From a virus, in the IMG/VR virus record IMGVR_UViG_3300044987_002082, positions 1 through 27,872 of that record: 27,872 bases of DNA; one strand, 5' to 3'. Shown here piece after piece: positions 26 to 22,835 of this stretch (positions are counted from its first letter, which is position 1; the number at the start of each line of letters is the position of its first letter). A program made the position numbers and the translations under genes. The notes under the pieces were generated by a model that was not told the DNA's origin, made no database searches, and saw nothing but the letters and a program-made list of their open reading frames with translations.

Positions 26-55
26 TTGACAGTTATTTTATAACTATTTTATAAT
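26..55 (+). promoter_or_regulatory. Sigma70/SigA-type promoter of the early module
   Basis: A perfect -35 hexamer TTGACA (26-31) and a perfect -10 hexamer TATAAT (50-55) are separated by 18 bases. Transcription would start near 62, about 30 bases before the first start codon. This is the best bacterial-consensus promoter in the window, so the host polymerase would be expected to transcribe the early genes. Confidence 0.8.
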
Positions 56-91: not shown

Positions 92-352
92 ATGTTGAAA
101 AATATAGATAGTGATTTTATTTGTCATATGACAAAAAATTTAAATGGTAATACGTTCAGTGTATATATGTATATGTGTAAAAATTCAGATGAGGAAGGAA
201 AAGCGAATTGTAGTCAAACAGAGATGATGAAAGATCTCTGTTTGAGCATAGGTTGTATCAAAAGATGTCTAAAGAAATTATTAGAGAATAAGTATCTTCG
301 TAAAGAAGATACATGGAGTGGTAGAACAGCAAATACTTATTATATTCTCTAA
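92..352 (+). CDS. Small winged helix-turn-helix DNA-binding protein (early regulator or replication accessory)
   Basis: An 86-residue protein that starts 7 bases after a strong AAGGAGGG ribosome binding site (77-84). Residues 20-86 follow the pattern of the HTH_36/replication-protein winged helix seen in many Firmicute phages. There is a first helix with FSVYMYMCKNS, an SQTEMMKDL helix, a recognition helix around LSIGCIKRCLKKLLENKYL, and a beta-wing ending in ANTYYIL. The family binds DNA and often sits next to replication genes; here it is the first gene of the early operon, directly before the primase-helicase. It could regulate the early promoter or recognise an origin. It has no ATPase or nuclease motifs. 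The fold is likely; the role is inferred from position. Confidence 0.65.
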   Translation: MLKNIDSDFICHMTKNLNGNTFSVYMYMCKNSDEEGKANCSQTEMMKDLCLSIGCIKRCLKKLLENKYLRKEDTWSGRTANTYYIL

Positions 353-419: not shown

Positions 420-3128
420 ATGATTATTAAATGTAACGTAGACAGAAAGAGTTTTACTTCAAAACCAGTAGGTTCTGAAATAGGGGATATTCAAAATAGA
501 TTAGCTAAAGGTCAAGAAGAAATAGAGATATCTGAATTAGCTTCATTATTAGCTTGTGGTGCTAGTTTTAAACCTGCTCACTTAGAATCTAAAGATTCAT
601 CAAGTTGGGTGTCACAACAACTATTTGCTTTAGATTTCGACAATGATATTACTAAAAATACTAAAATTACTACAATAGAAGCAGAATTAACTAGAGCCAC
701 TAAAGTCAATGTTCACCCCGCTTTTGGATATACTACATTTAGACACAGTGAAGCATTGCATAAGTTTAGATTAGTATTTGCATTAGATGTTGCTATAACT
801 GATATTAGAATACGTAATACTATACAATTTGCACTACTTAGATTATTCCCTAATGCAGACCAAGTTTGTAAAGATTCTGCAAGATTATTCTTTGGTGGTA
901 GAGAACTAATCTGTAGTAATTATGATTCTGTAGTTAATCCTTATGAGTTGATTCAAAATATGATTGCTACTATTAAATCAGAAAATTTAGCTCCAAAAGC
1001 TACAAAAGCGACAAAAGCTTTTTGTCAGGAAACAGGTTTAAATATGATTAATGGGTTACCAGATGTGCGATTTATTGAAGATGTTGAAAATGGAAATTTA
1101 ACCTGTCGACCTATATTATATATATATAGGTGCGAGGGTGAAATTTCCAAAAATATAGCTTTTAATTTCTTCATCAAAAAAGAAGATATAATAACTACAG
1201 ATTCAGCTACAAAGAAAAAAAATAGTAAGTATGGAATACCTACTAACACAAAAGAAAAAACTACTACAACACAGAGATTTGATTTTGAAGAACTAAGGGA
1301 TAATTGTGAGTTATATAGAAGTTTTGTAGAAGGTTCCCGTTGGGCATATCATCAAGAAGTATTTGGAATGGCAACAAACCTAAGTAATGTTGAGGGTGGG
1401 GAAAAAAGACTACTAGAAGCATTACAGAATGCTTCTTATGATAGTAATAGGAATAACTTAGAACATACTGTTAAATCGTCAAAATCGTACAATTATGAAC
1501 CAACTAGGTGTAATAACTTCTGTCCTTTCGCTTCTGAATGTGAGCATAATTTAAATATGTTACAACAAGTAGAAAATAAACAACGTTCTATAAGACAAAT
1601 AACAGAAGCAACACAAACGATTACATTAGCAGAAGCAGAGAAAAAAACATATGAAGAAATATTAATAGCTTTTAATAATACAAATAAAGATATAGTGAAC
1701 GTAATCAAATCGCCCACTGGGATTGGCAAATCATATATGCTTCAAGAAATAGCAAAAACAGACCCTGATTTTTTTACAAATACGATAGTAGCATTTCCTA
1801 CCCATAAGCTATTAAAAGAGCAAGTAGCAAAGATAATACAATACTTACCTCATTTATTGTATATGAATGAAGCAGAGATAGAAGATAAGAAGCTAAGAAC
1901 GGTAGTCAAAACAGCACAAACGGTAGGTAATTATGAAGGAGTACGTTTGCTATTAAAAGGGCATATAAAGACGTTAGAAGCTAGTAGAACAACAGAGAAT
2001 ACAGTTAGTGTAGATAGGCAAATCAAATCAATCAATAGTTATTTAGAATCATCTACAATAGCAAAAACAACCGATAGACCAATCTTTTGTACGCACAAAA
2101 GATTGACGATATTAAGAAACACTCATGTGAAAAGAATTATAGTTGATGAAGATTTAGTCAATACGTTAGCACAAACAATAACAGTTGATGTGAAGGAACT
2201 AAAGATTTCATTAAATTATGCAAACAGTATGATATTATCTAAGTTTTACGATCTTACTACAATACAATCACACATAATAATGTTAATAGAGTTTTTTGAA
2301 AAAGTAGCAAAAACTCAAAATGTAGTAACAGAATACCCGCATCAATTGTTTGTTGTTCCAGATGCGTCAGAAGTAAAGAATTTCTTATTATCTTGTACCC
2401 CTAATTTCAATTTGATTGATTTATTGAATATCAAAGCCGCAACATGTAATGGAGAAGTAATAACAGCTGTTATCAACAACATAGATAATATACAAGACGT
2501 TCCTATGACGATATTATCAGCTACTGCAAATGAAACTGTATATAAAACGTTATTAAAAAGAAAAACAATCAAATTCACTAACATAGATAATGTTGAAACA
2601 AAAGGTCAAGTGATAATTCACACAAACGGAAATAGCAGAAGTTATTTAACTAAGAATTTTGATAAAACAATAGCTAGAATCAAAGAAGAATCGCCTAACA
2701 TAAAAAATGTAATTACTTTTGCTAAATTTGAAGAGAAATTTGAAAAACAAGGATTTACTCCTATAGCTCATTACGGTGCTACAGCAGGTTTAGATGTATA
2801 CAAAGGTCAAGATTTAATAGTGTTTGGAACACCGCATATGAATATATCAGCATACTTGATTTTAGCACATATGTGTGGAATCAAAAAGGGGATAAAAACG
2901 GAAATGGATGTTGTTTCTTGCAATCGAAATGGCTTTGAATTTTCATTTAGCACATATAATAATGATGATACAAGTGAAGAAGCAAAGCTATTAAGAGAGA
3001 TACAATTTTACTTAATAGAAGCAGAATTGATTCAATCAATAGGAAGAGCAAGAGTATTAAGAGAAAACTGTACAGTGCATGTATACAGCAACTTACCTAT
3101 ACACGGTTGTAAAATATATAAAAAATAA
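420..3128 (+). CDS. AEP-type primase fused to SF2 helicase (phage replication protein)
   Basis: A 902-residue protein with AGGAGG at 406-411, 8 bases before the ATG. The N-terminal part looks like an archaeo-eukaryotic primase (PrimPol-like) domain: acidic pair D72-F-D74 in LFALDFDN, a HKFRLVF strand at 114-120, and DSARLFFGG at 152-160. A Cys/His cluster (C364, C368, C374, H376) suggests a small zinc-binding element between the domains. The C-terminal half is an SF2 helicase: Walker A SPTGIGKS (431-438), Walker B DED (576-578), SAT motif III (700-702), and motif VI Q872-S-I-G-R-A-R878. Together these suggest primer synthesis and unwinding at the phage origin. It lies in the same operon direction as the winged-helix gene and the polymerase-like gene. 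The helicase assignment is firm; the primase assignment is good but rests on short motifs. Confidence 0.8.
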   Translation: MIIKCNVDRKSFTSKPVGSEIGDIQNRLAKGQEEIEISELASLLACGASFKPAHLESKDSSSWVSQQLFALDFDNDITKNTKITTIEAELTRATKVNVHPAFGYTTFRHSEALHKFRLVFALDVAITDIRIRNTIQFALLRLFPNADQVCKDSARLFFGGRELICSNYDSVVNPYELIQNMIATIKSENLAPKATKATKAFCQETGLNMINGLPDVRFIEDVENGNLTCRPILYIYRCEGEISKNIAFNFFIKKEDIITTDSATKKKNSKYGIPTNTKEKTTTTQRFDFEELRDNCELYRSFVEGSRWAYHQEVFGMATNLSNVEGGEKRLLEALQNASYDSNRNNLEHTVKSSKSYNYEPTRCNNFCPFASECEHNLNMLQQVENKQRSIRQITEATQTITLAEAEKKTYEEILIAFNNTNKDIVNVIKSPTGIGKSYMLQEIAKTDPDFFTNTIVAFPTHKLLKEQVAKIIQYLPHLLYMNEAEIEDKKLRTVVKTAQTVGNYEGVRLLLKGHIKTLEASRTTENTVSVDRQIKSINSYLESSTIAKTTDRPIFCTHKRLTILRNTHVKRIIVDEDLVNTLAQTITVDVKELKISLNYANSMILSKFYDLTTIQSHIIMLIEFFEKVAKTQNVVTEYPHQLFVVPDASEVKNFLLSCTPNFNLIDLLNIKAATCNGEVITAVINNIDNIQDVPMTILSATANETVYKTLLKRKTIKFTNIDNVETKGQVIIHTNGNSRSYLTKNFDKTIARIKEESPNIKNVITFAKFEEKFEKQGFTPIAHYGATAGLDVYKGQDLIVFGTPHMNISAYLILAHMCGIKKGIKTEMDVVSCNRNGFEFSFSTYNNDDTSEEAKLLREIQFYLIEAELIQSIGRARVLRENCTVHVYSNLPIHGCKIYKK

Positions 3129-3169: not shown

Positions 3170-3180
3170 ACAACAAACAA

Positions 3181-3226: not shown

Positions 3227-3285
3227 ATATAACACAAAAAATAAAAATATGCAATGTTAATATAGAAAAAAATCAGAAGTAATAT

Positions 3286-6045
3286 ATGAGTGTAGCTAAC
3301 AAAGCTAACATTTTTTTGACAAGGTGTGATTTCACAATGATAAACGGAATCAAAATAATGAATTTAGAAGGATCTGATATCTTAAAGAATAACATAGAAA
3401 AGATCTCTATTAACAAAGAATATAGTAGTGTATTTGCAAATAGTTTATTGTTAGATAAACTCAAAAAAACAGGGTTAAAAGTAACAAAGAACACAACAAC
3501 AAGAGATATTATAAATATAAAGATAAACTATGATTACAAGTCAAAAGAAGCGAAAGAAATAGCTATTGAAATAACAACTATAAGGAATCAAATCAAAGAA
3601 AACTCATCTAAAATAAAAGAATTAATAAGTAACAAATTAGATAAACAACTAATCTTAAATTTAAAAGACAACAACAAAGAAGATAGATTATCTATTAAAA
3701 CATTAGAAGAAAAAGCTAAGAAGTTAATTATGAGTAAAGAAGCTATTAGAAATAGATTATATAAAAATGGATTTACATTAGACTTCTACAAAAAAGATAA
3801 AGTAACAAAAGAATATGTAATAGAAAAAACAATCGAATATGTGATGTGGTTCAGAACAACATCAAAAAGCCGTGTAGGTGAAGTTATGTTTATAAATAAA
3901 GAATTATATAACGACATCAAAACGTGGCAAAGAATGGGGTTAGAATTACCAATAGAAGAAGCAAAAATAGTAGAAATGTCAGCATATGAATCATTAACAT
4001 CAAGTTGCGTTGAAGGATATTTAGAAGGAATAGAACCTCAAAAAAATATATTAGTAGTAGATGATATAGAGAGTTTCTTTACTACAAAATGTGCTAGTGT
4101 ATATGTAGATGAATCTAGTGAATGTAAAGTTAAATATGAATTAAATCAAGTAAAAAATACATTATTTGACGGACAAGCATTATTAGATGATAAATGCTTT
4201 ATAAATGGTTATAGTGATAAATCTATGTTATTATTACGTCAGCATTTTTATAAAGCATGTTGTTTTAGAACTAATATAGAATTGTTTATGAAAGAGTATT
4301 GTATGACTAATAATAAAGATTATAATACTTATACAGTAAAAGATAGATATAATAACGATATCTATGTAAAAGATATATTAATGATTACTACAGAGAACGC
4401 AATGAAATGGGAGAAATTTCAATATATCGGAGCAAGTTATGAAAATTGGTGTAATAAAGTAAATGAAGATGGGAATATATTCGGTATATGCAAAACTGAT
4501 CATAGTAGTAAATTTAAGAATAATCAGAGAATGAGTTATCAAATGATAAGCACATTAAATATAAATGAATCAGAAACATTAGAGTTAGCAAAAACATCTA
4601 TAGAATATGTAAATAAAATAAAATATGATAATGAAGCATATATAGAGTTCTTAGAACAAAATTGTAATGAAGTAAATGCTAATCAAATGATAATAGATTT
4701 ATACAAACAAAATAGGTCATTTGAAAAATCTAGCTTCTTTAGAGAATATAAGAAAAAAGATATAAGTAAATACGTTGAAACTTTGCGTAATGGAAAGTTA
4801 TTAGTAGAAGGAGATAATCTCACCGTAGTAGGTAATCCCTATGTTTTATTGCTTCATGCAGTAGGACATGTTCCAGTATTAAATGGAGTATTAGATAAAG
4901 ATTTTGTTGATATAACATTACCAGTATCTAATACTGTTTCAGATCAAAATATATCAGTATATACAGAACGATTTGATGAAGGAGAATATTTAGCAGCTTT
5001 CAGATCCCCTCATAATAGCCCTAATAATATCGGGTATCATAAGAATCATAAACATGAATATATGTCTAAATACTTTAAATTCAACAACAATATAATTACA
5101 GTTAATTTAATACAAACAGAAGAACAAGATTTGAAAAATGGACTCGATATGGATTCAGACTTTGTTTTTGTTACTAATAATACAACGACAGTAGCATCAG
5201 CAAAAAAAGTATTTAGAAATTTTTCATGTATAGTAAATAAGATTGAGAAATCAACTAAGACGTATAAGAATACTGTTGAGAATTTAGCATTAATTGATTC
5301 TAATTTAGCAAAAAGCAAATATGATATTGGATTATCTTCAAATTTAGCCACGTTAGCATTGTCATGGCATTGGAATGATAATACACAAGAATTAGCAGAT
5401 ATAGTATGTATAATGAGTGTATTAGCACAATGTGCAATAGATAATAGTAAAAGATTATATCAAGTAGATATAGCAAAAGAAATAAAGAGAATAAGTCAAT
5501 TAGATTGTATGAAGCATACTACAATAAATACTAATAATAAAGCGATAAAAGCTAAACCATATTTTTGGAAATATATTAGTAGTGCAGTAAATGAAGAAAG
5601 TTTAATTGAATGTAATTGTAGTATGAATCATTTACAAAAAGCATTAGATACTATTAAATGTGCTAGTAAAGAAAATGATACTATAAATACAGTAGAAATG
5701 ATTCAATTAAGAACAGGTAAAGCTAATGATAAGCAAATGAAGATAATTGAGAAAATCATCAAAGGATATGATGATAAAATAAAGGAACATAATGATAAAG
5801 TAGAAAAAAATATAATAGTAGAGAATAAAGAAAAATGGAATAAACAACAACAAGACCTTCTAAACAAAGTTATTACAGATATAAAGAAACTAAAAATACT
5901 GGAGAAAACAATGCAAACATTAATAACAAAAGCAATAGATCCTGCTTCTCAATCAATGAATAAGAAGTATAAGAGAAAATTACTTAATGCATTGCATAAA
6001 TCACATACAGCTTCATTTTTAAATTGTTTTAAAAAAGCAGAGTAA
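3286..6045 (+). CDS. Putative single-chain two-barrel RNA polymerase (YonO/RDR-like)
   Basis: A 919-residue protein whose motifs appear in the order expected of double-psi beta-barrel RNA polymerases. FDGQALL (294-300) and LLLRQHFYK (315-323) come first. A first-barrel lysine block follows: K403 and K409 in KTDHSSKFK, then QRMSYQ (414-419). Next are GNPY (516-519) and R573-S-P-H, then the metal-binding signature D621-M-D-S-D625 in GLDMDSDFVFV. After that come DIG (680-682) and CAIDNSK (716-722), which resemble the segments after the active site of cellular RDRs. The Arg-Pro block precedes the aspartates as RAPTLH precedes NADFDGD in bacterial beta'. The C-terminus is lysine-rich. The ATG at 3286 has a weak ribosome binding site; an in-frame ATG at 3337 follows AAGGTG and may be the true start (902 aa). 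It would make RNA, as a phage transcriptase or perhaps a primer-maker. Confidence 0.72.
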   Translation: MSVANKANIFLTRCDFTMINGIKIMNLEGSDILKNNIEKISINKEYSSVFANSLLLDKLKKTGLKVTKNTTTRDIINIKINYDYKSKEAKEIAIEITTIRNQIKENSSKIKELISNKLDKQLILNLKDNNKEDRLSIKTLEEKAKKLIMSKEAIRNRLYKNGFTLDFYKKDKVTKEYVIEKTIEYVMWFRTTSKSRVGEVMFINKELYNDIKTWQRMGLELPIEEAKIVEMSAYESLTSSCVEGYLEGIEPQKNILVVDDIESFFTTKCASVYVDESSECKVKYELNQVKNTLFDGQALLDDKCFINGYSDKSMLLLRQHFYKACCFRTNIELFMKEYCMTNNKDYNTYTVKDRYNNDIYVKDILMITTENAMKWEKFQYIGASYENWCNKVNEDGNIFGICKTDHSSKFKNNQRMSYQMISTLNINESETLELAKTSIEYVNKIKYDNEAYIEFLEQNCNEVNANQMIIDLYKQNRSFEKSSFFREYKKKDISKYVETLRNGKLLVEGDNLTVVGNPYVLLLHAVGHVPVLNGVLDKDFVDITLPVSNTVSDQNISVYTERFDEGEYLAAFRSPHNSPNNIGYHKNHKHEYMSKYFKFNNNIITVNLIQTEEQDLKNGLDMDSDFVFVTNNTTTVASAKKVFRNFSCIVNKIEKSTKTYKNTVENLALIDSNLAKSKYDIGLSSNLATLALSWHWNDNTQELADIVCIMSVLAQCAIDNSKRLYQVDIAKEIKRISQLDCMKHTTINTNNKAIKAKPYFWKYISSAVNEESLIECNCSMNHLQKALDTIKCASKENDTINTVEMIQLRTGKANDKQMKIIEKIIKGYDDKIKEHNDKVEKNIIVENKEKWNKQQQDLLNKVITDIKKLKILEKTMQTLITKAIDPASQSMNKKYKRKLLNALHKSHTASFLNCFKKAE

Positions 6046-8112: not shown

Positions 8113-8574
8113 ATGGCAAAAAGTAATGATGAAATAGCAATAATGAGAAATGAATATATAACTACAAAAATTAATCAAAAAGATTTAGCAAAAAAATATA
8201 GCTTATCAGTAGTAACATTAAATAAATATGCTACATCAGAAAATTGGTTTGAATTAAGAGAAGTATTTTTAAATCAATTAAAAACAAGTACGATCAAACA
8301 AGTATCAGTATTAAAAGCAGAGTTACTCGCAGAAGGTGATATAAAAGTAATAGAATGTGCTAAGAAATTATTAGTAAAAGTAGAAGCTATGATATCAAAA
8401 GCAAATAACATCACAGTAGCAGGAAAAATAGCTAACTGTTTACAAAAGATTCAAGAGATAATCAGAAAAGGTTTAGCATTAGATGAAAATAATGACACCA
8501 ATACAAAAGATATAAATATTAAGATAGATTTACCTGATGAATCAGAATTTAAAGAAGATGATATCAATGGCTAA
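8113..8574 (+). CDS. terS: Terminase small subunit
   Basis: A 153-residue protein preceded by AAAGGGGA. The N-terminal 60 residues hold a helix-turn-helix, visible as INQKDLAKKYSLSVVTLNKY, followed by the ENWFELREVF stretch typical of phage small terminase subunits. The middle is helical and could form the oligomerisation core. The C-terminus is acidic (DLPDESEFKEDD), as often found where TerS contacts TerL. It would recognise the phage packaging site and load the large subunit on DNA. Its stop codon overlaps the start of the large-subunit gene, so the two are probably translationally coupled. The context (TerL and portal next) makes the assignment secure even though small subunits diverge quickly. 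Confidence 0.85.
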   Translation: MAKSNDEIAIMRNEYITTKINQKDLAKKYSLSVVTLNKYATSENWFELREVFLNQLKTSTIKQVSVLKAELLAEGDIKVIECAKKLLVKVEAMISKANNITVAGKIANCLQKIQEIIRKGLALDENNDTNTKDINIKIDLPDESEFKEDDING

Positions 8575-9796
8575 TATTAATATAGATTTAACAAATATAA
8601 AGAAAGTAATATCACCACACTTTTACCCCTTATTAAATAATACAAATAGAATCGTTGTATTAAGAGGTGGTTCCTCAAGTGGTAAGTCTAGATTTCTAGT
8701 ACAAATGTTTATAATACGTTTATTATCTAGAGATAAATACAACATCTTATGTTTAAGAAAGTTTGGCTCTACATTAAGAACATCAACATTTGCTGAATTT
8801 ACAAAGGTAATAAGTGATTGGAATCTAAATCAATTGTTTAAGATAAATAAGAGTATATTAAGCATTGAATGTATCAATGGAAACAAAGTAATTTTTATGG
8901 GAGTAGATAATCCAGAAAAATTGAAATCTATATCAGGAATAACTAATGTATTCATGGAAGAATGTACTGAATTTAATCAACAAGATTTTGAACAAATCAC
9001 ATTAAGATTGAGAGGTAGAAATAAATATAAATATCAATTTTATTTAGCATTTAATCCAGTATCCTCGCAGTCATGGGTAAAGAAATACTTTTATGATAGA
9101 ACCAATGCAGATACTTATTTAGATATATCTACATACAAAGATAATCCTTTTTTAGATAAAGATACAATAAGAAACTTTGATAATTTAAAAGAAACAAATC
9201 TGATGTGGTATCAGATTTATTGTTTGGCAGAATGGGGAACCACAGGAGAGCAAGTATATAACAATTATGAAGTAAAAGATATTAAATATAAAGATGAAGA
9301 TTTTAATTTAATATATTATGGATTAGATTTTGGATATCACGATCCATGTACGTTAGTTAAAATAGGATTTAAAGATGATGTAATATATATATTAGATGAA
9401 ATATATCAAAGTAAAATAACTAACAATCAATTTATAGATTTATGTACAGAGAAAGTAGATACAAACAGTTATTATTCAATGATAGGAGATTCAGCAGAAC
9501 CAGATAGAATAGAAGAATTTAAACGTAGTAGATTTAAAAGAATTAAATCAGCTAAAAAAGGACCAGGGAGTATAAAATACGGTATAGATTGGATAAAAAC
9601 AAAGAAGATAATAATAGATCCTAATTGTAAGAATTTTATAAAGGAAATACAAACTTATTGCTATATCAAAAATAAAGATGGAGCAGTAACAGATACCCCC
9701 GCTTCTGGTTATGATCATATATTAGATGCAATGAGATATAGTTTAGAACCATTAATAACAAAGAAAGAAGGACTTAAAATATTAACATGGGAATAG
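8567..9796 (+). CDS. terL: Terminase large subunit (packaging ATPase/nuclease)
   Basis: A 409-residue protein when started at the ATG at 8567, which overlaps the TerS stop by 8 bases; an upstream ATG at 8537 is possible but lies deeper in TerS. The ATPase half has Walker A GGSSSGKS (34-41) and Walker B VFMEE (128-132). The RNase H-like nuclease half has its acidic residues in GLDFGYHDP (D254), GDSAEP (D308) and YDHILDAMRY (D387). The pattern and size fit the PBSX/Terminase_3 family, close to SPP1-type packaging motors. It would cut concatemeric DNA and pump it through the portal. All catalytic residues are present, so it should be active. Confidence 0.95.
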   Translation: MANINIDLTNIKKVISPHFYPLLNNTNRIVVLRGGSSSGKSRFLVQMFIIRLLSRDKYNILCLRKFGSTLRTSTFAEFTKVISDWNLNQLFKINKSILSIECINGNKVIFMGVDNPEKLKSISGITNVFMEECTEFNQQDFEQITLRLRGRNKYKYQFYLAFNPVSSQSWVKKYFYDRTNADTYLDISTYKDNPFLDKDTIRNFDNLKETNLMWYQIYCLAEWGTTGEQVYNNYEVKDIKYKDEDFNLIYYGLDFGYHDPCTLVKIGFKDDVIYILDEIYQSKITNNQFIDLCTEKVDTNSYYSMIGDSAEPDRIEEFKRSRFKRIKSAKKGPGSIKYGIDWIKTKKIIIDPNCKNFIKEIQTYCYIKNKDGAVTDTPASGYDHILDAMRYSLEPLITKKEGLKILTWE

Positions 9797-9806
9797 GTGA
9801 TAAACA

Positions 9807-11213
9807 ATGATAGTAGAAAAGGAATTAATAAAAGCTAAGATAGATTATTTTGCTAATAAAAACAATGAATTAACTCAAATACAAAATGTATTTCAAGATT
9901 TAATAAAAGAACATAGAGAGAAAATCCCAAAATATATAGATGGAGAAAAGTATTATGAGAATAACAACACCTATATAGATAATAAAGCAAAATATGTAAC
10001 GATAGATGGAGTGAAAATAGCAGAAACATCTAGTAGTAATAATAAGATAAGACACCCCTTTCATAGAAATTTAGTAGATCAAAAAGTAAATTATTTACTA
10101 CAAAAACCAATCAGTATAAGTTGTAAAGATCAACAACAAAATGAATTAATCTATACTATATTAAATGAAACATTTGATGATACCTTAATAGAAATAGCAA
10201 AAGAAACAAGGAGTAAAGGAGTAAGTTATATACAAGTATATATAAATGAAGCAGGAGAATTTAAATATAAAAGAATAAGTCCTGAAAAAGTAATTCCTAT
10301 CTATAATAAAATTGAACCAAGCAAATTAGATGGAGTAATAATACTAGATATATATAAAAGTAATAATTATAAAGAAACAATCAAAATATCGTATTGGGAT
10401 GAAAAGAATGTAACTCATTATATAAAATATGATAATACAGATAAATATGTATTAAATGTAGAAGAATTTGATAATGCAAATGAATTTCATTTTTATTCAA
10501 ATGAAAAAGGAATAACTTATGGTCATAGTTGGGGGAAAGTACCTTTTATAGAATTTAGGAATAACTACAAAAAAACATCTGATTTACAATTATATAAAGA
10601 TAAGATAGATCAATATGATTATACAATATCAACATTACAAGATAATTTAGATGATGTACAAAGTTTAATATATGTATTAAAAGGTTATAATGGTCAAAAT
10701 TTAAAAGAATTTATGTCTAATTTACAAAACTTTAAAGCAGTAGCATTAGATAGTGAAGGTGGATTAGATACATTAAAAGCAGAAATACCAATAGAAGCAG
10801 TAGAAGCTAATTTAAATAGAATAAAGAAAGATATATATGCATTAGCAAATGGAATAGATACAACACAAGAAAATGTAATAAGTAATACTAGTGGAGTAGC
10901 ATTAAAATTTATGTATAATAATTTAGATTTAGCAGTAACCCCTATGGAGAATAAATTTAAAGTAGCTATATTAGAATTATTAGAATTAGTATATGTCTAT
11001 ATAAGTTTAAAATCATCAAAATTATATACTAATGAAGAAGTACAAGTTACATTTAATAAATCAAGGATAATCAATGATAAAGAGAAATTAGAAACATTGA
11101 ATTTATGTCAAACTAGCATATCACAATTAACATACTTAGAAAACATACCATTCGTAACAGATGTTAATTTAGAGATAGAAAGAATCAAAGCAGAAAAACC
11201 TATAACAATGTAA
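9807..11213 (+). CDS. Portal protein, SPP1 Gp6 family
   Basis: A 468-residue protein whose start is 10 bases after the large terminase, preceded by AGGTGAT. Family signs are the N-terminal helical stretch with YIDGEKYYEN and KIRHPFHRNLVDQKVNYLL (about 80-100), followed by the conserved KPISIS. The central part carries the loop-like region around GWGKVPFIEF-type residues (GHSWGKVPFIEFRNN, about 232-250). A C-terminal helical region follows with DDVQSLIYVLKGY and SGVALKFMYNNLDL. As a dodecamer it would form the DNA channel at the head vertex and dock the terminase and connector. No separate SPP1 gp7-type minor head gene follows, and the portal has no fused morphogenesis domain. Confidence 0.92.
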   Translation: MIVEKELIKAKIDYFANKNNELTQIQNVFQDLIKEHREKIPKYIDGEKYYENNNTYIDNKAKYVTIDGVKIAETSSSNNKIRHPFHRNLVDQKVNYLLQKPISISCKDQQQNELIYTILNETFDDTLIEIAKETRSKGVSYIQVYINEAGEFKYKRISPEKVIPIYNKIEPSKLDGVIILDIYKSNNYKETIKISYWDEKNVTHYIKYDNTDKYVLNVEEFDNANEFHFYSNEKGITYGHSWGKVPFIEFRNNYKKTSDLQLYKDKIDQYDYTISTLQDNLDDVQSLIYVLKGYNGQNLKEFMSNLQNFKAVALDSEGGLDTLKAEIPIEAVEANLNRIKKDIYALANGIDTTQENVISNTSGVALKFMYNNLDLAVTPMENKFKVAILELLELVYVYISLKSSKLYTNEEVQVTFNKSRIINDKEKLETLNLCQTSISQLTYLENIPFVTDVNLEIERIKAEKPITM

Positions 11214-11265
11214 AAACCTATATCGTTGTCATTCAACGTTAAAAATGAGAATGTAGGAGAATATT

Positions 11266-11841
11266 ATGGAATTTTTAGAAATATTAAAATCAGCAAATTT
11301 AAGTGAAGAAAGTATAGTAGAAATACAAAAACAAATGACAGAAAAGAATGTAAGAATATTAACAGATGAAGAAAATTATATACCTAAAACAAGATTTGAA
11401 CAGGTAAATAATGAAAAGAAGCAATATAAGAAAGATTTAGAAGATACTAAACAACAGTTAGAAGAATTAAGTAAGAATAATAAAAATGAGGAATTATCTA
11501 ATACCATAAAAGAATTAACTGATAAATTAACAACATCAGAATTAAACACTAAAAACATAATGATTAATAGTAATATCAAAGAATATGCACTAAGAAATAA
11601 AATAAAAGAAAATGCTTATGATTTATTAGATAAAATTATAAACAAAGATAATATAGTAATAAATGAACTTGGAGAAATAGAAGGTATAGATAATATATTT
11701 AATGAATTAAAACAAAATAAATCATTTTTATTTGATGAAGAAAAAGTAGATATTACTGGTAAAACACCAGTAGATAATAATAACGATAATAATACTAAAC
11801 AACTAGATCCATTTATATCTGGATTATTTGGTAAATTATAA
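11266..11841 (+). CDS. Scaffold / phage minor structural protein, Gp20-like
   Basis: A 191-residue, highly charged and helical protein between portal and capsid, the usual scaffold position. It starts with MEFLEILKSANLSEESI. It then has IPKTRFEQVNNEKKQYK (about 45-60), which is characteristic of Gp20/DUF4355-type scaffolds, and a coiled coil to about residue 100. The conserved IKEYALRNKIKENAYDLL follows near 105-122, and a C-terminal tail ends in DPFISGLFGKL. Scaffolds of this kind guide assembly of the procapsid and leave or are degraded before packaging; the basic/aromatic C-terminus usually contacts the capsid protein. A weak 5-bp hairpin (11224-11238) lies in the short gap before it. Confidence 0.85.
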   Translation: MEFLEILKSANLSEESIVEIQKQMTEKNVRILTDEENYIPKTRFEQVNNEKKQYKKDLEDTKQQLEELSKNNKNEELSNTIKELTDKLTTSELNTKNIMINSNIKEYALRNKIKENAYDLLDKIINKDNIVINELGEIEGIDNIFNELKQNKSFLFDEEKVDITGKTPVDNNNDNNTKQLDPFISGLFGKL

Positions 11842-11846
11842 ATAAC

Positions 11847-11864
11847 AAAATAAACGGAGGTAAT
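11847..11864 (+). promoter_or_regulatory. Strong ribosome binding leader of the capsid gene
   Basis: AAAATAAACGGAGGTAAT sits just before the capsid start. The identical 18 bases occur before the major tail gene at 14170-14187. The GGAGGT core is optimally spaced, fitting very high expression of both proteins. Confidence 0.75.
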
Positions 11865-11868
11865 AAAC

Positions 11869-12684
11869 ATGGCTATCAATTTAGCAACAAAGTATTCAAA
11901 TGAAGTAATAGAAAAGTTTAAACTAGGAGCATTAACAGAAGGTGCAAATGTAACAAAAGTAGATTTCGTTGGAGCAAAAACGGTAAAAGTATATAGTATA
12001 CCAACAGCAACAATGAATGATTATTCAAGAACTGGTTCAGCAAGATATGGTACACCATCAGATTTAGCAGATACAGTACAAGAATTAACATTGGGTAAGG
12101 ATAGATCATTTACATTTGTAGTAGATGCAGGAGATAATGCAGATCAAATGGGAATTAAAAATGCAGCATTAGCTTTAGCAAGACAAATTGATGAAGTAAT
12201 CATACCAGAAATAGATGCATATAGAATTGCAACATTAGTAGCAGGAGCAGGAACAACAAAAACAGCAGCATTAGAAACAGATGCATATATTGATTTTTTA
12301 AATGCAGTAGAAGTATTAGATGAAAATAAAGTACCTGCTTCTGGTAGAATTGCATTTGTAACACCTGCCTTTTATAATAGCTTAAAATTATCTACATCAT
12401 TCGTAAAAGCTAGTGAAATGGCACAAAGTATGTTAATAAAAGGAGTAGTAGGAGAAGTAGATGGAGTAGCTATAGTAAAAGTACCTAGTTCATATTTTCC
12501 AACAAAAACACCTTTTGTAATGTGTCACAATACAACATTAGTATCTCCTATTAAATTATCTGATTATACAATTCATGAAAATCCACCAGGAGTTAATGGT
12601 GTATTAGTTGAAGGTAGAGTATATTATGATGCTTTTGTATTAGATACATTAGAAAAAGGCGTATATGCTAGAAAAACAGTTTAA
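11869..12684 (+). CDS. Major capsid protein (HK97 fold)
   Basis: A 271-residue protein following the scaffold gene, with an optimal GGAGGT site. Its alanine-rich composition and length match the compact capsid proteins of SPP1-like Firmicute phages. It starts with an N-terminal segment (LATKYSNEVIEKFK), and an E-loop-like region follows around SRTGSARYGTPSDL. The long spine-helix region contains KNAALALARQIDEVIIPEID (about 95-114). The later part has GRIAFVTPAFYNSL (about 159-172) and ends with VYYDAFVLDTLEKGVYA. It would form the icosahedral shell. No N-terminal protease-cleaved delta domain is seen, which agrees with a separate scaffold gene. Codons are among the most uniform in the window, as expected of the most abundant product. 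Confidence 0.9.
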   Translation: MAINLATKYSNEVIEKFKLGALTEGANVTKVDFVGAKTVKVYSIPTATMNDYSRTGSARYGTPSDLADTVQELTLGKDRSFTFVVDAGDNADQMGIKNAALALARQIDEVIIPEIDAYRIATLVAGAGTTKTAALETDAYIDFLNAVEVLDENKVPASGRIAFVTPAFYNSLKLSTSFVKASEMAQSMLIKGVVGEVDGVAIVKVPSSYFPTKTPFVMCHNTTLVSPIKLSDYTIHENPPGVNGVLVEGRVYYDAFVLDTLEKGVYARKTV

Positions 12685-12697
12685 TGAGGTGTTGTAA

Positions 12698-12832
12698 ATG
12701 ATTAAAGTAGTAAAAGGTGAACTAATTCATGAAATAGAAGAAAATACATTAAATTGTTTTTTAAGAAATGGATATGAAATAGTTGATGAAGAAACTATAG
12801 TAAAACCAAGTAAACCAAAAAAGGGAGAGTAA
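12698..12832 (+). CDS. Small capsid-adjacent phage protein (44 aa)
   Basis: A 44-residue ORF 13 bases after the capsid gene, with GAGGTG before the ATG. It begins MIKVVKGELIHEI and has FLRNGYEIVDEE, ending in a lysine-rich tail. Small proteins with this pattern, a beta-start and a helix followed by NGYEIV, often sit directly after the capsid gene in Firmicute phages. I cannot assign a function; a role in head decoration or head-tail joining is possible from position. A 7-bp hairpin overlaps its stop codon. Confidence 0.7.
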   Translation: MIKVVKGELIHEIEENTLNCFLRNGYEIVDEETIVKPSKPKKGE

Positions 12833-12845
12833 TATCTCCCTCTTT
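12822..12845 (+). terminator. Weak intrinsic terminator or attenuator after the capsid cluster
   Basis: AGGGAGA (12822-12828) pairs with TCTCCCT (12835-12841) around a 6-nt loop, with an A-run before it and TCTTT after it. The T-tract is short, so read-through into the connector genes is expected. This would lower their level relative to the capsid protein. Confidence 0.5.
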
Positions 12846-12863
12846 AATTAAGTAGGTGTTTTA

Positions 12864-13175
12864 ATGTTAGATAATATAAAAGTTCTATTAAAAATAACTG
12901 ATGAAACAAATGATGATATATTAAATCTATTAAGGATAAGATCACTAGATGATATATTAAATTATATAGGTATAAATGAATTAGATATAAATATAAGTAT
13001 AGACAATATAATAGATGATTTAACTATATTAAAATATAACAGATTAGATAATCAATATATTAAATCAGAATCTGTTGGTCCATTAACAACAACATATGTA
13101 GATAATGTAGATGGATTACCTGATAGTATAAAGCAACGGTTAATTAGATATAAGAAAATAAGAGTTGTTTTATAG
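12864..13175 (+). CDS. Head-tail connector protein (gp6/SPP1 gp15-like)
   Basis: A 103-residue protein with a TAGGTG site before its ATG. It starts MLDNIKVLLKI and continues DDILNLLRIRSLDDILNYI, the helical layout of the phage connector family (Phage_connect_1, HK97 gp6/SPP1 gp15). Members stack under the portal as a ring and extend the DNA channel. The C-terminal part KSESVGPLTTTY (about 67-78) matches the conserved loop SEsvGplsvsY of this family. It overlaps no gene; the next start is 16 bases downstream. Order and size fit the standard head-completion cluster. Confidence 0.85.
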   Translation: MLDNIKVLLKITDETNDDILNLLRIRSLDDILNYIGINELDINISIDNIIDDLTILKYNRLDNQYIKSESVGPLTTTYVDNVDGLPDSIKQRLIRYKKIRVVL

Positions 13176-13191
13176 GGAGTTGATAAAAAAT

Positions 13192-13494
13192 ATGAAAAAT
13201 ACTGTTGTACAGTTACAAGTTAGTAGTAATAGTGTTGATGTAGAAGGTAATTTAATAAGTTTGTTATCTGATGTAAAAAAAATATCAGGTATATTATTAC
13301 CAACTACACAAGAAGAAATGAATAAGAAATATGGATATTCAAATATTGTATCGTATCAATTCTTCTATAAAGGTAAAGAAAATATAGAATTAGGAAGTTA
13401 TATAAATAATCTATTAGTAGTACACATTGTAGATTATATTAAAATCAAAGTAATTTTATTAAAAGAGGTACAAATACGAATATACAAGTTTTAA
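13192..13494 (+). CDS. Head closure / head-tail joining protein (SPP1 gp16-like)
   Basis: A 100-residue protein when started at the ATG at 13192, which has AGGGAG upstream; a TTG at 13165 in the same frame lacks a site and would overlap the previous gene. The middle shows GILLPTTQEEMNKKYGYS followed by SYQFFYKGKENIELGSYI, a beta-rich pattern typical of the head-closure family that plugs the connector and meets the tail. The short C-terminus (LLKEVQIRIYKF) is unlike the usual ending and overlaps the upstream extension of the next reading frame. Assignment is mostly from position and length. Confidence 0.7.
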   Translation: MKNTVVQLQVSSNSVDVEGNLISLLSDVKKISGILLPTTQEEMNKKYGYSNIVSYQFFYKGKENIELGSYINNLLVVHIVDYIKIKVILLKEVQIRIYKF

Positions 13495-13514
13495 ATTCAA
13501 GTAAAATATTAAGT

Positions 13515-13790
13515 ATGTTAACAAAAGCAGTAACAAAAGAAGTAGATAAATATAATAATGTTTTAGAAACAACAGCAAAAAATATAGTAAATAGAGCTAA
13601 AGAGTTAGCACCTAAATTAAGTGGTAATTTATCTAATTCAATTAAATATACAGTAGCAAAAACTAATAAAATAAGTGAAATAACTATATCAGCAGAAGCA
13701 GATTATGCAGTATGTATAGAATATGGAACAAGTAAACAAAAACCACAACCATACTTAAATCCTGCAATAGATGAATATATCAAGAGGTGA
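13515..13790 (+). CDS. HK97 gp10-like minor tail / tail-connector protein
   Basis: A 91-residue protein from the ATG at 13515. It carries the family features AKNIVNRAKELAPKLSGNLSNSIKY (shown in part, about residues 21-44), YAVCIEYGTSKQKPQPYLNPA (about 65-85) and a final helix. HK97 gp10 proteins sit at the tail-to-head interface. The annotated ATG has no ribosome binding site. The same frame is open upstream, and AAGAGG (13463-13468) lies 7 bases before an ACG codon at 13476. Starting there would give a 104-aa protein beginning NIQVLNSSKIL after the initiator, closer to the usual length. ACG is one base from ATG, so the true start may be this rare codon. It ends in TGA, 6 bases before the next gene. 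Confidence 0.8.
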   Translation: MLTKAVTKEVDKYNNVLETTAKNIVNRAKELAPKLSGNLSNSIKYTVAKTNKISEITISAEADYAVCIEYGTSKQKPQPYLNPAIDEYIKR

Positions 13791-13796
13791 TGTAAA

Positions 13797-14171
13797 ATGA
13801 TAAATGGTAAAGCAATATTATATAACATATTAAAAACTAATACTAATTTGATTAGTAAAATAGGTAAAATACAGAACTCTACATTACCTTGTATATTTAC
13901 AGATTATCCTGCTTCATTTAATAGTTTACCATGTATCAGTTATTATGAAATAGATTTACAAGAAACTGATTTTGCAGATGATGAAGCTATAATAGAACAA
14001 TCAACATTACAAATTGATATATGGAGTAATACTAGCACTACTGAAATATTTGAAATAATAAATCCCTTATTAAAAGCTAATAAATTTACACTAATAAATG
14101 CATTAGATATACCAGACCCACAAATAAAGCATAAAAGTATAAAATATATTATACAAAAAATAAATATATAA
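13797..14171 (+). CDS. Tail completion protein (SPP1 gp17 / DUF3168-like)
   Basis: A 124-residue protein with GAGGTGATG before its start. It has the expected pattern: an N-terminal helix (MINGKAILYNILKTN), then LPCISYYEIDLQETDFADDE (about 42-61). The strand QSTLQIDIWSNTSTTEIFEI follows (about 65-84), and a C-terminal strand pair ends in IKYIIQKINI. Proteins of this family cap the proximal end of the tail tube and mate with the head-closure protein. Its place just before the major tail gene fits. Confidence comes from pattern plus position. Confidence 0.8.
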   Translation: MINGKAILYNILKTNTNLISKIGKIQNSTLPCIFTDYPASFNSLPCISYYEIDLQETDFADDEAIIEQSTLQIDIWSNTSTTEIFEIINPLLKANKFTLINALDIPDPQIKHKSIKYIIQKINI

Positions 14172-14187
14172 AATAAACGGAGGTAAT
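14170..14187 (+). promoter_or_regulatory. Strong ribosome binding leader of the major tail gene
   Basis: The same 18 bases as before the capsid gene, AAAATAAACGGAGGTAAT, overlap the end of the tail completion gene by two bases. The core GGAGGT lies 9 bases before the ATG at 14192. Confidence 0.75.
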
Positions 14188-14191
14188 TAAT

Positions 14192-14734
14192 ATGGCGGGA
14201 ATTAAAATAGGTGTAAGTGATCTTACAGTAAAACAAATTACAAAAGATGATGCAACTGGTTTAATTTTTGGTACACCAGTATCTTTTTCTAAGAAATTAA
14301 TCAAAGTTTCTATAGACCCACAAAATACAACAATAGAATTGTCAGCAGATGATCAAATCGTAGAAACAATGACAACTGTATCAGAAATTAAAATATCTTT
14401 AGATGTAACTGATTTGTTACCATCAGAAAAAGCAGTATTATTAGGTCAAACAATGATAGCAGGAGTAAGAAGTGTAGGTAAGGCTGATATAGCTCCTTAT
14501 TTCACAGTAGCATTTAAATCTAAAAAGAGTAATGGTGATTATAAATACATTAAACTTCATAAAGTAAAATTCACAGAAAGTAAAGATAATTTTGAAACAT
14601 TAGATAAAAGTCCTAAGTTCCAAAACTTAACTTTAGAAGGAATAGCTATTCCTACTATTAATACAGGTTTGTTAATGTCAGAAGCAGATGCCGGTGAAAC
14701 AGCATTTGTAGGAGCAGGTACTTGGTTAGCATAA
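14192..14734 (+). CDS. Major tail (tube) protein, phi13 family
   Basis: A 180-residue protein with an optimal ribosome binding site. Conserved features of the phi13-type tube protein are visible. It starts GIKIGVSDLTVKQIT, then has FGTPVSFSKKLIKVSI (about 27-42), ELSADDQIVET (about 50-60), and EIKISLDVTDLLPSEKAVLLG (about 67-87). PYFTVAFKSKKSNG follows near 103-116, and NLTLEGIAIPT near 146. It forms the hexameric rings of the non-contractile tail tube. No Ig-like C-terminal extension is present. A strong terminator follows the gene, so it may be expressed at a higher level than the downstream tail genes. Confidence 0.88.
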   Translation: MAGIKIGVSDLTVKQITKDDATGLIFGTPVSFSKKLIKVSIDPQNTTIELSADDQIVETMTTVSEIKISLDVTDLLPSEKAVLLGQTMIAGVRSVGKADIAPYFTVAFKSKKSNGDYKYIKLHKVKFTESKDNFETLDKSPKFQNLTLEGIAIPTINTGLLMSEADAGETAFVGAGTWLA

Positions 14735-14746
14735 AATATATAAGTC

Positions 14747-14776
14747 AAAGAGTAGATTAGTTTCTACTCTTTTTTT
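14747..14776 (+). terminator. Rho-independent terminator after the major tail gene
   Basis: AAAGAGTAGA (14747-14756) pairs perfectly with TCTACTCTTT (14763-14772) around a 6-nt loop, ending in a T-run (14770-14776). It separates highly expressed head/tube genes from the tape-measure and tail-tip genes, so read-through or a further promoter is needed downstream. Confidence 0.85.
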
Positions 14777-14814
14777 AAATTAAAATAATATAAAAAAGGA
14801 TAGGTGTATATAAA

Positions 14815-15171
14815 ATGAGAGATACAAATGCGTTAGGATACATAAAAGAAAAAACAATAAAGATAAAATTATTAGATGGAGAACATGAATTAAAGTTTGA
14901 TTTAAATGCATTAGAATTATTAGAAGAAGAATTTGGAGGAATAGATGTATTAGATAATCTAGATTTATCTAAAATGAGAAATTTTAAAGCATTTATAAGA
15001 GCTGGTATAGCACATGAATATGAAGATGATAAAATACCAACACCAAGAGCAGTAGGTAAATTAATAGATTTAAATATGTTAATGCAATTTGAGAAATCAA
15101 TTAGTGAAGCATTTATAAATTCAATGCCAGAAGCAACACCAATAAATAGTACAAAAAAAAAAGACTTATAA
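14815..15171 (+). CDS. Tail assembly chaperone, short form (G-like)
   Basis: A 118-residue protein preceded by GGATAGGTG. It is acidic and helical with KIKLLDGEHELKFDLNALEL (shown in part, about 12-32), EEFGGIDVLDNLDLSKM (about 36-52) and LIDLNMLMQFEKSISEAF (about 84-101). This resembles tail assembly chaperones of Firmicute siphophages, which coat the tape measure protein before tube polymerisation. It lies between the major tail and tape-measure genes, where phage chaperone pairs are almost always found. The gene ends just after a run of ten A (15153-15162), at which a frameshift would fuse it to a second frame. Confidence 0.75.
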   Translation: MRDTNALGYIKEKTIKIKLLDGEHELKFDLNALELLEEEFGGIDVLDNLDLSKMRNFKAFIRAGIAHEYEDDKIPTPRAVGKLIDLNMLMQFEKSISEAFINSMPEATPINSTKKKDL

Positions 15172-15361
15172 ATTAGATGATAATAAAACTGATTTTAAAC
15201 AATTATATTATTTATGGACCGTAGTATTTAATCAACCTAGAGAAGAATTTTGGAAAACAACATTTAAAACAATTTGTATATTAATAGATCAACATGTGAA
15301 AGCAAATTCAATTGAAGAACAAGATGAAGATGAATTAACTTATATAGATGCTATTTGGTAA
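14815..15361 (+). CDS. Tail assembly chaperone, frameshifted long form (GT-like)
   Basis: Downstream of the short chaperone, the frame starting at 15164 stays open for 65 codons to TAA at 15359-15361. It encodes a plausible protein segment (FKQLYYLWTVVFNQPREEFW and EQDEDELTYIDAIW) but has no in-frame ATG near its start. A +1 or -2 slip on the A10 run at 15153-15162 would join it to the chaperone, giving about 181-182 residues. A -1 slip would hit a stop after four codons. G/GT chaperones made by programmed frameshifting are conserved in siphophages; most use -1, while +1 and -2 variants are known. The fused product is inferred and not a directly visible ORF. Confidence 0.7.
15153..15162 (+). 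promoter_or_regulatory. Slippery A10 run (probable programmed frameshift site)
   Basis: Ten consecutive A occur at the end of the chaperone frame (codons ACA AAA AAA AAA GAC). The zero-frame stop comes 2 codons later (TAA 15169-15171), leaving a short window for slipping to the 15164 frame. Confidence 0.65.
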
Positions 15362-15393
15362 GTATTAATATATATATATAGGAGGGAATAGGA

Positions 15394-18300
15394 GTGGCTA
15401 CAAATATAGGAGATTTATTATTAAGAATAACAGCAGATGCTAGTGGAGTTAGTAATTCTTTAAATGAAGTTAAAGGTCAACTATCATCTTTTTCTTCAAT
15501 GGCTAAGGGAATTATAGCAGGTATATCATTAGATAAAATATTTGATACAACTATAAAATCAAATGCAACATTTGAACAATATAGAACGAGTTTTGAAGTA
15601 TTAATGGGTTCAGCAGATAAAGCAAAACAACACATGGAATCTTTAAATAAATTCGCAGCAGAAACACCTTTTGAATTACTTGGAATTATACAAGCATCAC
15701 AACAATTAGAAACATATGGTTTAAAAACAGAAACATATTTAAAAGTAGCAGGTAATACAGCTTCAGCATTTGGTAAACAAATAACAGATGTCACTAGTGC
15801 GTTAGGTAAATTAGCTTCAGGTAATACAGGCGAAGGATTAGAAAGATTAAGAGATTTTGGAATCACTTCTAAACAATTAGCTGAACAAAAAATAACATTT
15901 GATAAAGGTGGAAGTTTAACTAGTTCAGTAAAACAAACCATGGAAGCAGTAGTTAATATAATGAATCAAAAATATAGTGGTATGATGGATAAACAATCAC
16001 AAACTGCTAATGGTTTATTTAGTACATTAAAAGATAATCTAAGTGCTTTTGGTAGACAAATAGGTGAACAAACATTTGATTTATTAAAGGTTAAATTACA
16101 AAGTTTTATGGCTTTATTTCAACAATGGGGTAATGATGGTACATTAAAAGCTATATCTAATAAATTATCAGAAGGATTTATTGGTGTTGTAAATACTATA
16201 CAAGTAGCTATTAATTTTATAGTTACTTATAAATCTCAAATAGCTTCATTAGTAGGTGTATATATTGCAGTTACTACAGCATTAAAGGTAGCCGCTACAG
16301 CACAATCAGTATTTAATGCTGTAGCAATGATGAATCCTTATGTAGCAGTAGCAGCAGCTTTAATAGGATTGGCAGGAGCAGTATGGGGATATAAAGCAGC
16401 AAACGATGCATTAAAAACATCAACAGAAGATGTACAAAAACAACATGATACATTATCAACATCAATAGAGAAATTAACTACTGATTATCAAAATTTAGCT
16501 ATAGTTGAAAGTCAGATGGGAACTTATAATAAAAATTCAGGCTATGAAGAAGCTATGAAAAAGATTGATGCTTATCAAAAAAGGATAGATAACCTAAAAG
16601 ATTATCAAGCAGAATTAGATAAGTTAAATGGAGTAAATGCCGATGCTCCACCAACACAAAATGTAGCAATAGATCAACTTAATGCTAAAATAGATGAATT
16701 AAAAGGGAAATATAAAGATGTAATAGATTTAAATAATAAATTTAATGATGCTTCTAATATAGCAAAACAAAAACAAAAAATAGAATCAACTATAAAAGAA
16801 TCACAAGCTATACAAGATAATACAACGTCTTATGAAGCATTATATAATAAAATTAGATCTGGGCAACCATTAAATCAACAAGAAATAAATGCTAACAATA
16901 AAATGATAGCACAATACCCACAATATAAAACTGTGTTAAATGAAAAAACAGGAGCAATAGGTATAGATATACAAGCATTAGGTTCGCAAAAAAGTGCTAC
17001 AGAAATATTAGCTAAAGCTGAATTTGCAAGTTATCAAGCTAGTATGTCACAACAAGCAAGTAAAACTAGTCAAATAATTGAAAATACAAAAACTAGAATA
17101 ACAGCTATAAATACTGAAATAGAAGCTAACAATAAATTAGCAATAGCATTAGGTGGTTCAGGAACTAGTGAACAAGCATCATTTGCTTTTAAACCAGGAG
17201 TTGGCCCTAATAGTAACTCGCCTACTGGAGATCCATTTAGAGATGCTATAAGTGGTATAGCTAAAAAGAACAATACAGAATTAAAACAACAATCAGCTAC
17301 AGCTCAAGCTGAATTAGATAAATTAAATAATTTATATGCAGCTCAAAAAGGAGCTAGTGATTTAACTTATGAGCAATATTCTTCACAATATACACCATCA
17401 AGTTCAGGTTCATCATCTGATCCATATAGTAATTTAGATAATTCACCTCGTGGTAGTAGTGGTAAAAGTAGTAGAGATAAAGTAGGAGAAGCTGGTAAAA
17501 CAGCACAAGAAATAGCAGCTGAAGAAGCTAGAATAGCAGAAGAAGCTAAACAAAAAGAAGAAGATGATAGACAAACATATTTAAATAATTATATAAGAGA
17601 TAATATTACAGCTAAAAAAGCAGTAGGTGAATTAACATTAGAAGCAGAAGAAAATCAATGGAAATATGTTAGAAATAATTTATCTAAAACAACAGAAGAA
17701 CAACAACAAGCAGACCAAGCAATATATCAAAATAAAAAAGATAAATTTGAAGATGAAGTAAAAGATATAGAAACAAAGAAATCGTTAGGTAAAATAAATG
17801 CAGATGAAGAAATAGCTTTATATAAAAATCTTTTAAATAACAAAGCATATGACGAAGAAACAAAAACAAAATTAACTTTAACATTAAGACAAAAAATATT
17901 AGATAATAGTAAAACATGGATAGATGAAGAAAAACAATATAATAATATGTCTTTAGAAGAAGAAAAATCAGCATGGACTAGAGTATATGAAAATCAAAAA
18001 GATAATATAGAAGCAGTAAAAACAGCAACACAAGAATTATATCGTATTAAAAGAGAAGAAATACAAAACACATTAGAATTACAAAAAGAAGAATCATCAT
18101 TTAATTCAATTATATTAAGTCAAACTAAAAAGGATAGTTATATATCAGATAAAGGTGATGGTACACCTAAATACAATGATACATCATTTGATAAAGCTTT
18201 AGCTTTATCAAATGATGTAGTTAATAATATGAAAATAAAATATGGTATAGGTGGTAGTTTTTCTGATTCAGATATGAGTAAACAAAGTAATGCTATTATG

Positions 18301-19746: not shown

Positions 19747-19759
19747 AGGTATTAATAAT

Positions 19760-20593
19760 ATGGGAATAGAATTTAGAAATGTAAAATCAACTGATTTAGG
19801 ATTAATTGTTAAAACTGTATCTTTAGAATTATTACCTAAAGCTAAAACAAGTATTCAAAGTGCTTTAAATAGAGATGGTAGTTATGATTTTTCAAATGTA
19901 AATGAAGATGGTAGAATACATTATGAAGATAGAGTGTTTCAATTTAAAATATCATTAATTAGGAACACAAGAGTTAATATACAAAAAGCATTTAGTAAAA
20001 TGATAGGATGGTTATATGGGGATTTTGGTCCATTAGAACTAGATGATATGCCTAATATCATATGGGTTGCTAAATTAGAAAATGCAGAGAAAATAAGTCA
20101 AGAATTTATTCATGCAGGTGAAGCTAATATATATTTTAGAGTTAAACCTTTCGCAAAGTCTACTGTAAATACTTATTCAAATGTTAAATTAAATTCAAAT
20201 CTATTATTAGGTAGTAATTATAAAATAGGTGGAGTTATAAAAGATTATACTTATTCAATAGGAACTAGCACTAAATTAAATATAAATAACATAGGTACTT
20301 GGTACACTAAACCTCGGTTTAAAGTGACAGGTACCTATACTTATGTTGAGATAAAAAACAAGTATAATAAGAGTTTTAAATATTTTGGTGGAAGTGTTGA
20401 AAATATAATTGATATTGATTTTGATACTAATTTTATAACTAAAGATAATATCCCTATTAATGATAAAGCAATAGGATTAGGTTGGGAATTTACTTCTGGT
20501 ATTAATGAAACTACATTCTTAACTGATGGTGTTAATGTAAAAGTAATGTTATATATGGATTATTATTATTTATTTGGTGAGGTGGAAGTATGA
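19760..20593 (+). CDS. Distal tail protein (Dit)
   Basis: A 277-residue protein when started at the ATG at 19760, which follows ATAGAGGT; an upstream in-frame ATG at 19724 lies inside the tape-measure gene. The N-terminal domain shows GIEFRNVKSTDLGLIVKTVS and the conserved RDGSYDFSN (about 38-46), followed by YEDRVFQFKISLI (about 57-69). These are characteristic of the siphovirus Dit/phi3626-gp14 family. The C-terminal half is a beta-rich galectin-like region (PRFKVTGTYTYVEI). Dit forms the hexameric hub joining tail tube to baseplate. It overlaps the next gene by 4 bases (ATGA), so translation is probably coupled to Tal. Confidence 0.88.
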   Translation: MGIEFRNVKSTDLGLIVKTVSLELLPKAKTSIQSALNRDGSYDFSNVNEDGRIHYEDRVFQFKISLIRNTRVNIQKAFSKMIGWLYGDFGPLELDDMPNIIWVAKLENAEKISQEFIHAGEANIYFRVKPFAKSTVNTYSNVKLNSNLLLGSNYKIGGVIKDYTYSIGTSTKLNINNIGTWYTKPRFKVTGTYTYVEIKNKYNKSFKYFGGSVENIIDIDFDTNFITKDNIPINDKAIGLGWEFTSGINETTFLTDGVNVKVMLYMDYYYLFGEVEV

Positions 20594-22809: not shown

Positions 22810-22835
22810 AAAATAATATAAGGAAAGGTGATAAT

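Follow-up and report, generated by a model that had tools for sequence, protein, structure and literature searches.

What kind of enzyme is encoded by the open reading frame at 3286–6045 of this phage DNA, and which step of the phage cycle does it serve? The window, by which we mean the whole stretch analyzed, comprises 27,872 nt (positions 1 to 27,872 of IMGVR_UViG_3300044987_002082) and probably derives from a small phage with a Clostridium-like gut bacterium as the host. The frame lies intact on the plus strand and encodes 919 aa. The ATG at 3337 (M18) is probably the true start, giving a product of 902 aa, because close relatives start at MINGIKIM, residues 1–18 are the sole stretch of the structure model with a pLDDT below 50, and an AAGGTG at 3321–3326 is located 10 nt upstream of this ATG.

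The protein looks unannotated, since a Pfam search returned only two matches, both sub-threshold and meaningless, and an NCBIfam search returned none. No match above the gathering score was obtained with the eukaryotic RDR family of Pfam (RdRP, PF05183), to which a relative, L086, showed a similarity (E=0.0044, 16.2 bits) under the cut-off of 23.8. Sequence searches of solved structures gave nothing meaningful for the protein, for the profile of its family, or for L086. The PHROG profile search, in contrast to these, matched residues 20–917 to PHROG 8308 (E=1.4e-109), a family annotated as unknown function to which YonO of the Bacillus phage phi3T also belongs (E=1.9e-303). The pairwise BLAST match to SPBc2 YonO was weak (E=2e-5). 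In a profile–profile comparison using hhalign, a 62-sequence alignment of the family (A2, also used for the AlphaFold2 prediction) was aligned with YonO, Perkons, and TR-TP1 with a probability of 99.9% (E=1.1e-37), and the E value reached 3.4e-46 when PMBT24 was joined to the YonO side. PHROG 8308 and the profile–profile comparison thus assign the protein to the YonO family by sequence alone. The first-pass annotation had proposed a YonO/RDR-like enzyme; this assignment is borne out, and the profiles led to YonO and to no unrelated fold. A plasmid search with the protein gave no match. PADLOC found nothing, and thus there is no sign of a defence role.

The AlphaFold2 model has a mean pLDDT of 91.5 and a pTM of 0.87. 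In the PDB comparison of this model, all 21 matches at E<=0.001 were RDR2 or QDE-1 (maize RDR2, ZmRDR2, E=2.5e-13), and the next match had an E value of 0.21. The overall TM-score against RDR2 was ~0.45. Structural alignment (VIA-align) scored maize RDR2 at Z 25.9 across 647 residues and QDE-1 at about 22, after which the phage RNA polymerases (RNAPs) ranked (8f72, 15.3; 8f5m, 15.2; 8h2m, 10.5; 6vr4, 9.2). In BFVD, the top match (E=8e-54) was a phage protein whose label reads RNA dependent RNA polymerase. The predicted structure, which matches eukaryotic two-barrel RNAPs along the entire chain, supports the two double-psi beta-barrel fold expected from the initial reading of the DNA.

The conserved residues point to the same type of enzyme. 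The motifs from which the family had originally been guessed are all present and in the described order: FDGQALL (294–300) and LLRQHFYK (316–323), KTDHSSKFK (403–411) and QRMSYQ (414–419) in barrel one, GNPY (516–519), RSPH (573–576), GLDMDSD (619–625), DIG (680–682), and CAIDNSK (716–722). These motifs are not due to chance, since their key residues are identical in 47/47 aligned diverse proteins including YonO: D295, G296, R318, K323, K374, K403, Y418, Q419, G503, R573, P575, D621, D623, D625, G682, D719, and K722. The aspartates D621, D623, and D625, kept in 62/62 family proteins, had been pointed out as a metal site and indeed align with the catalytic triad of YonO (D535, D537, and D539), whose replacement in the 3D>3N mutant abolished RNA extension (PMC5467207). 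K374, K403, Y418, and Q419 correspond to K316, K340, Y354, and Q355 of YonO, the invariant R573 and P575 to R492 and P494, and K722 to K628. K403 and K409 had been named as the barrel-one lysines. K403 is invariant, and K409, where the family has lysine in 28 and histidine in 29 of the 62 proteins, is ruled out as a catalytic lysine by its conservation. The invariant K374 is a better second lysine of barrel one, and K374 and K403 are probably the substrate and phosphate lysines. Barrel one of QDE-1 contains the invariant Q736, K743, and K767 (PMC1750930), and a trigger-loop lysine replaces the histidine of multisubunit RNAPs in RDR2 (K923), QDE-1 (K1119), and phi14:2 (K1615) (PMC8713982). By order and spacing, K374, K403, and K722 may be the natural counterparts of the QDE-1 and RDR2 lysines. 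The resemblance of CAIDNSK to RDRs noted at first sight is retained: D719 and K722 are invariant, and the segment is probably the trigger-loop segment, in a register inferred to place K722 at about the RDR2, QDE-1, and phi14:2 lysine. The succession of elements in RDR2 (PMC8713982) suggests that the helix at 664–698 is the bridge helix.

The gene order around the enzyme gives insight into its role (Table 1). The promoter ahead of the operon is the sole perfect sigma-70 site in the scanned region 1–20000. The enzyme had been described as lying directly after a primase-helicase, and this is plausible for the 420–3128 frame on the basis of motifs and sub-threshold Pfam scores: its product carries DFDND and HKFRLVF in the N-terminal part and the helicase motifs GIGKS, IVDED, and QSIGRAR. 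Its structure prediction, made from two sequences, had a pLDDT of 30. Hardly any relatives of this product were present in the collections of phage and viral sequences (a 29% partial match in locus L010 and a single weak one in a Staphylococcus phage). The RNAP gene is followed by a BRO-N anti-repressor gene (6568–7674), whose C-terminal part is RusA-like at a sub-threshold score, and then by the packaging, head, and tail genes. Among these, a tail protein gene at 14815–15171, probably encoding the tail assembly chaperone, stops close to an A10 run beyond which a start-less open frame runs on; the layout of this region (14815–15382) resembles the programmed frameshifting of tail chaperones.

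Table 1. Features of the window, and interrupted genes of relatives, considered in the analysis
Feature	Position	Strand	Evidence
Sigma-70-type promoter, TTGACA, 18 nt, TATAAT	26..55	+	12/12 matches; before the RNAP-containing operon
Replication-initiator-like gene, first of the operon	92..352	+	PHROG 428, replication initiation protein, E=7.6e-4
Large primase-helicase, probable	420..3128	+	Sequence motifs; PHROG 25531; Pfam ResIII E=0.0035 (below cut-off)
YonO-family single-chain two-barrel RNAP	3337..6045 (longest ORF from 3286)	+	PHROG 8308; hhalign; AlphaFold2 model
Barrel-one segment: TENAMKWEKF (K374, K377), KTDH (K403), QRMSYQ (Y418, Q419)	4390..4542	+	Conservation
RSPH block (R573, P575) ahead of the metal site	5002..5013	+	Invariant
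Metal-binding loop GLDMDSD of barrel two (D621, D623, D625; Ser624)	5140..5160	+	Alignment with YonO
Long helix 664–698 at the bridge-helix position (invariant G682, N686)	5275..5379	+	AlphaFold2 secondary structure; conservation
CAIDNSK (D719, K722)	5431..5451	+	47/47 conservation
Packaging, head, and tail genes (operon presumed to be the target)	8113..24602	+	Terminase, portal, scaffold, capsid, connector, tail, and tape measure matches
Interrupted RNAP genes of relatives	L004 2581-6151; L007 230-3769; L089 1904-4811		

We also looked for promoter-like elements within the window. The intergenic region upstream of the terminase genes contains an inverted repeat at 7935–7974, with perfectly matched 18-nt arms and a loop of 4 nt, and other inverted repeats are found at 6350–6387 and 3131–3223. 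The 7935–7974 repeat had 10 matches elsewhere in the window against 6.1 expected, with no clear excess, and no similar repeat was seen in L002, L003, L010, or L028. We therefore do not claim it as a promoter. No repeated promoter-like motif between the genes of the window was clearly above the shuffled controls; the best intergenic 13-mer occurred in four intergenic regions, resembled a ribosome site, and compared with three in the shuffles.

The late genes of SPbeta are transcribed by YonO, a DNA-dependent RNAP (PMC5467207). The RNAP gene of the window is free-standing and located upstream of the structural genes, an order compatible with late-gene transcription. We consider it highly probable that the protein is a YonO-family single-chain RNAP with two double-psi beta-barrels, whose function is most likely the DNA-templated transcription of later phage genes. 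The family, the fold, and the conservation of the catalytic residues in this best explanation come from the present analyses, and the DNA template, the late-gene target, and the promoter are carried over from YonO. Starting at the 26–55 promoter, the host sigma-A enzyme would read the early operon; the phage RNAP would then be produced inside the cell and would transcribe the later genes for packaging, head, and tail off a DNA template. In the enzyme, barrel one would provide the substrate lysines K374 and K403, and barrel two the Mg-binding D621, D623, and D625, with the bridge helix (about 664–698) and then the trigger-loop lysine K722 downstream of the metal site.

The fact that the nearest solved folds are RDR2 and QDE-1 raises the alternative that the enzyme is an RNA-dependent RNA polymerase copying RNA templates, which is also how relatives are labelled in the PMBT24, TR-TP1, Perkons, and BFVD entries. 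Those labels, however, appear to be similarity-based, YonO, the closest characterized relative by sequence, is DNA-dependent (PMC5467207), and an RNA-silencing partner was not seen in the window; we regard RNA templates as unlikely. Synthesis of primers for phage DNA replication, suggested in the first-pass annotation, would fit the early operon that the gene shares with the replication-initiator-like gene and the probable primase-helicase. Little else speaks for it. The adjoining probable primase, which has primase-like motifs of its own, makes the primer role less likely, this neighbour varies among relatives (a partial match in L010 and none in L002 and L003), and YonO works in transcription, so that a primer-making enzyme seems quite improbable. 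We find it equally improbable that the enzyme is a virion RNAP, delivered by injection for transcription of the first genes in the manner of crAss-like phages and P23-45. The fold class is common to phi14:2 gp66 and P23-45 gp96, but the gene is free-standing in an operon of replication genes that opens with a host-type promoter; there is no fusion to a tail or capsid protein of the P23-45 gp96 type, and the tape measure gene (15394–19746) is separate from the RNAP frame.

Transcription by a YonO-family enzyme is the reading that we prefer, and one departure from YonO lies in the metal loop. The DxDxD metal motif of the two-barrel superfamily is present as DMDSD at 621–625. DxDGD is the form reported to be universal among cellular RNAPs (PMC7598289), and the glycine at its fourth position, a hallmark of the cellular multisubunit (beta') enzymes, is absent here, the residue being Ser624. 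Nearly all members of the family have DxDSD (serine in 59, glycine in two, and threonine in one of the 62 proteins), and the glycine form is found outside the clade in YonO, Perkons, TR-TP1, and PMBT24. A tree of 47 proteins places the window RNAP inside a 43-row clade (SH-aLRT 99) apart from these four, with the root of the split unsure given the long branches. A catalytically dead relic would be the least probable of the explanations considered: the RDR2 substitution G833E causes loss of function (PMC8713982) and the serine replaces the glycine of the DxDGD loop, but neither the three aspartates nor the basic residues vary in any of the 62 proteins, the frame is open, and a serine common to a large clade speaks for an accepted change.

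The description as divergent does not hold if it is taken to mean isolated, as relatives are encoded in 141 or more viral stretches. A scan of genome contigs also found prophage or MAG copies in Clostridium sartagoforme, Eubacterium ruminantium, Cuneatibacter, and other Lachnospiraceae. The small contig that carries one relative, L095, was assigned to a Thermoplasmata archaeon in binning; L095 clusters with Lachnospiraceae sequences in the tree, and thus the binning is likely to be in error. Our literature search found no activity report for any member of the clade. We tentatively suggest that the clade is a large separate branch of phage RNAPs, in which the clade-wide serine might go with changes in metal handling, in fidelity, or in the choice of template. 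The branch might provide a transcription program of their own to Clostridia phages, among them some that seem small, with contigs of about 30–45 kb.

Some relatives have an interrupted gene. Nine viral loci, and phi3T as well, show such a break within a catalytic motif each time. The break is ahead of the first metal-loop aspartate in L004, L021, L024, L026, and L030, behind the second in L007, L008, and L025, and at the CAIDNSK segment in L004 and L020; phi3T YonO is broken at the corresponding FTID|FAK. Rfam group I introns were found in the gaps of four loci, namely L004 (5276–5525), L021, L024, and L030, and we presume that the interruptions lacking an Rfam call are introns as well. Unlike the breaks in catalytic codons, the split in L022 is near the N-terminus and may reflect a frameshift. 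Introns and disruptions, also at DxDxD, have been described for the RNAP genes of crAss-like phages (PMC7886860). As a separate observation, two gut phage contigs carry an RNA element roughly 1–2 kb downstream of the RNAP relative: a ROOL RNA in L004 (8424–9021) and a GOLLD RNA in L005 (11345–11835), the latter adjoining tRNAs.

Single-chain two-barrel phage RNAPs, YonO among them, have already been described (PMC5467207, PMC10770324, PMC7824862), and the enzyme type seen in the window is therefore not new. Two features are less expected: the DxDSD clade separate from YonO and the interruptions in catalytic codons. The present family adds a large, mostly unannotated, and almost unstudied group of phage proteins to the single-chain two-barrel RNAPs, which are thought to resemble the ancestor of cellular RNAPs and RNA-silencing enzymes. 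The clade-wide change from glycine to serine is a natural experiment on a near-invariant metal-loop residue, and this small protein is a practical target for structural and promoter work.

Among the known systems, YonO of SPbeta is likewise a single chain from a Firmicutes phage, belongs to the same PHROG 8308, can be aligned over most of the chain, and has identical catalytic residues. The identity is about 18% in the aligned region, YonO has DNDGD whereas the window RNAP has DMDSD, the long helical hairpin (87–147) in the N-terminal region of the window RNAP is unlike YonO, the Cys-rich C-terminal tail of YonO is lacking, and the SPBc2 genome is 134 kb, in contrast to the apparently small phage of the window. 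RDR2 and QDE-1 share the whole-chain fold (Z 22–26), the metal aspartates, and, as inferred, the position of the trigger-loop lysine. They differ in sequence (10–12% identity), in the N-terminal RRM region of RDRs that is missing here, in the loop (DLDGD in RDR2 but DMDSD here), and in the RNA-silencing context that the window lacks. P23-45 gp64 and gp96, P74 gp62, and P32 gp64 have the two-barrel fold in common (Z 10–15) with sequence similarity below detection in these searches, and gp96 is fused to a tape measure protein, whereas the window gene is free. The crAss-like phi14:2 gp66 shares the two-barrel catalytic core (Z 9.2) but is a 2166-residue virion protein in another gene context. The proteins of Enterocloster phage PMBT24 and Thomasclavelia TR-TP1 annotated as RNA-dependent RNA polymerases are homologous and come, too, from gut Firmicutes phages; with their NGCDFDGD motif, they lie outside the 43-row clade and keep the metal-loop glycine.
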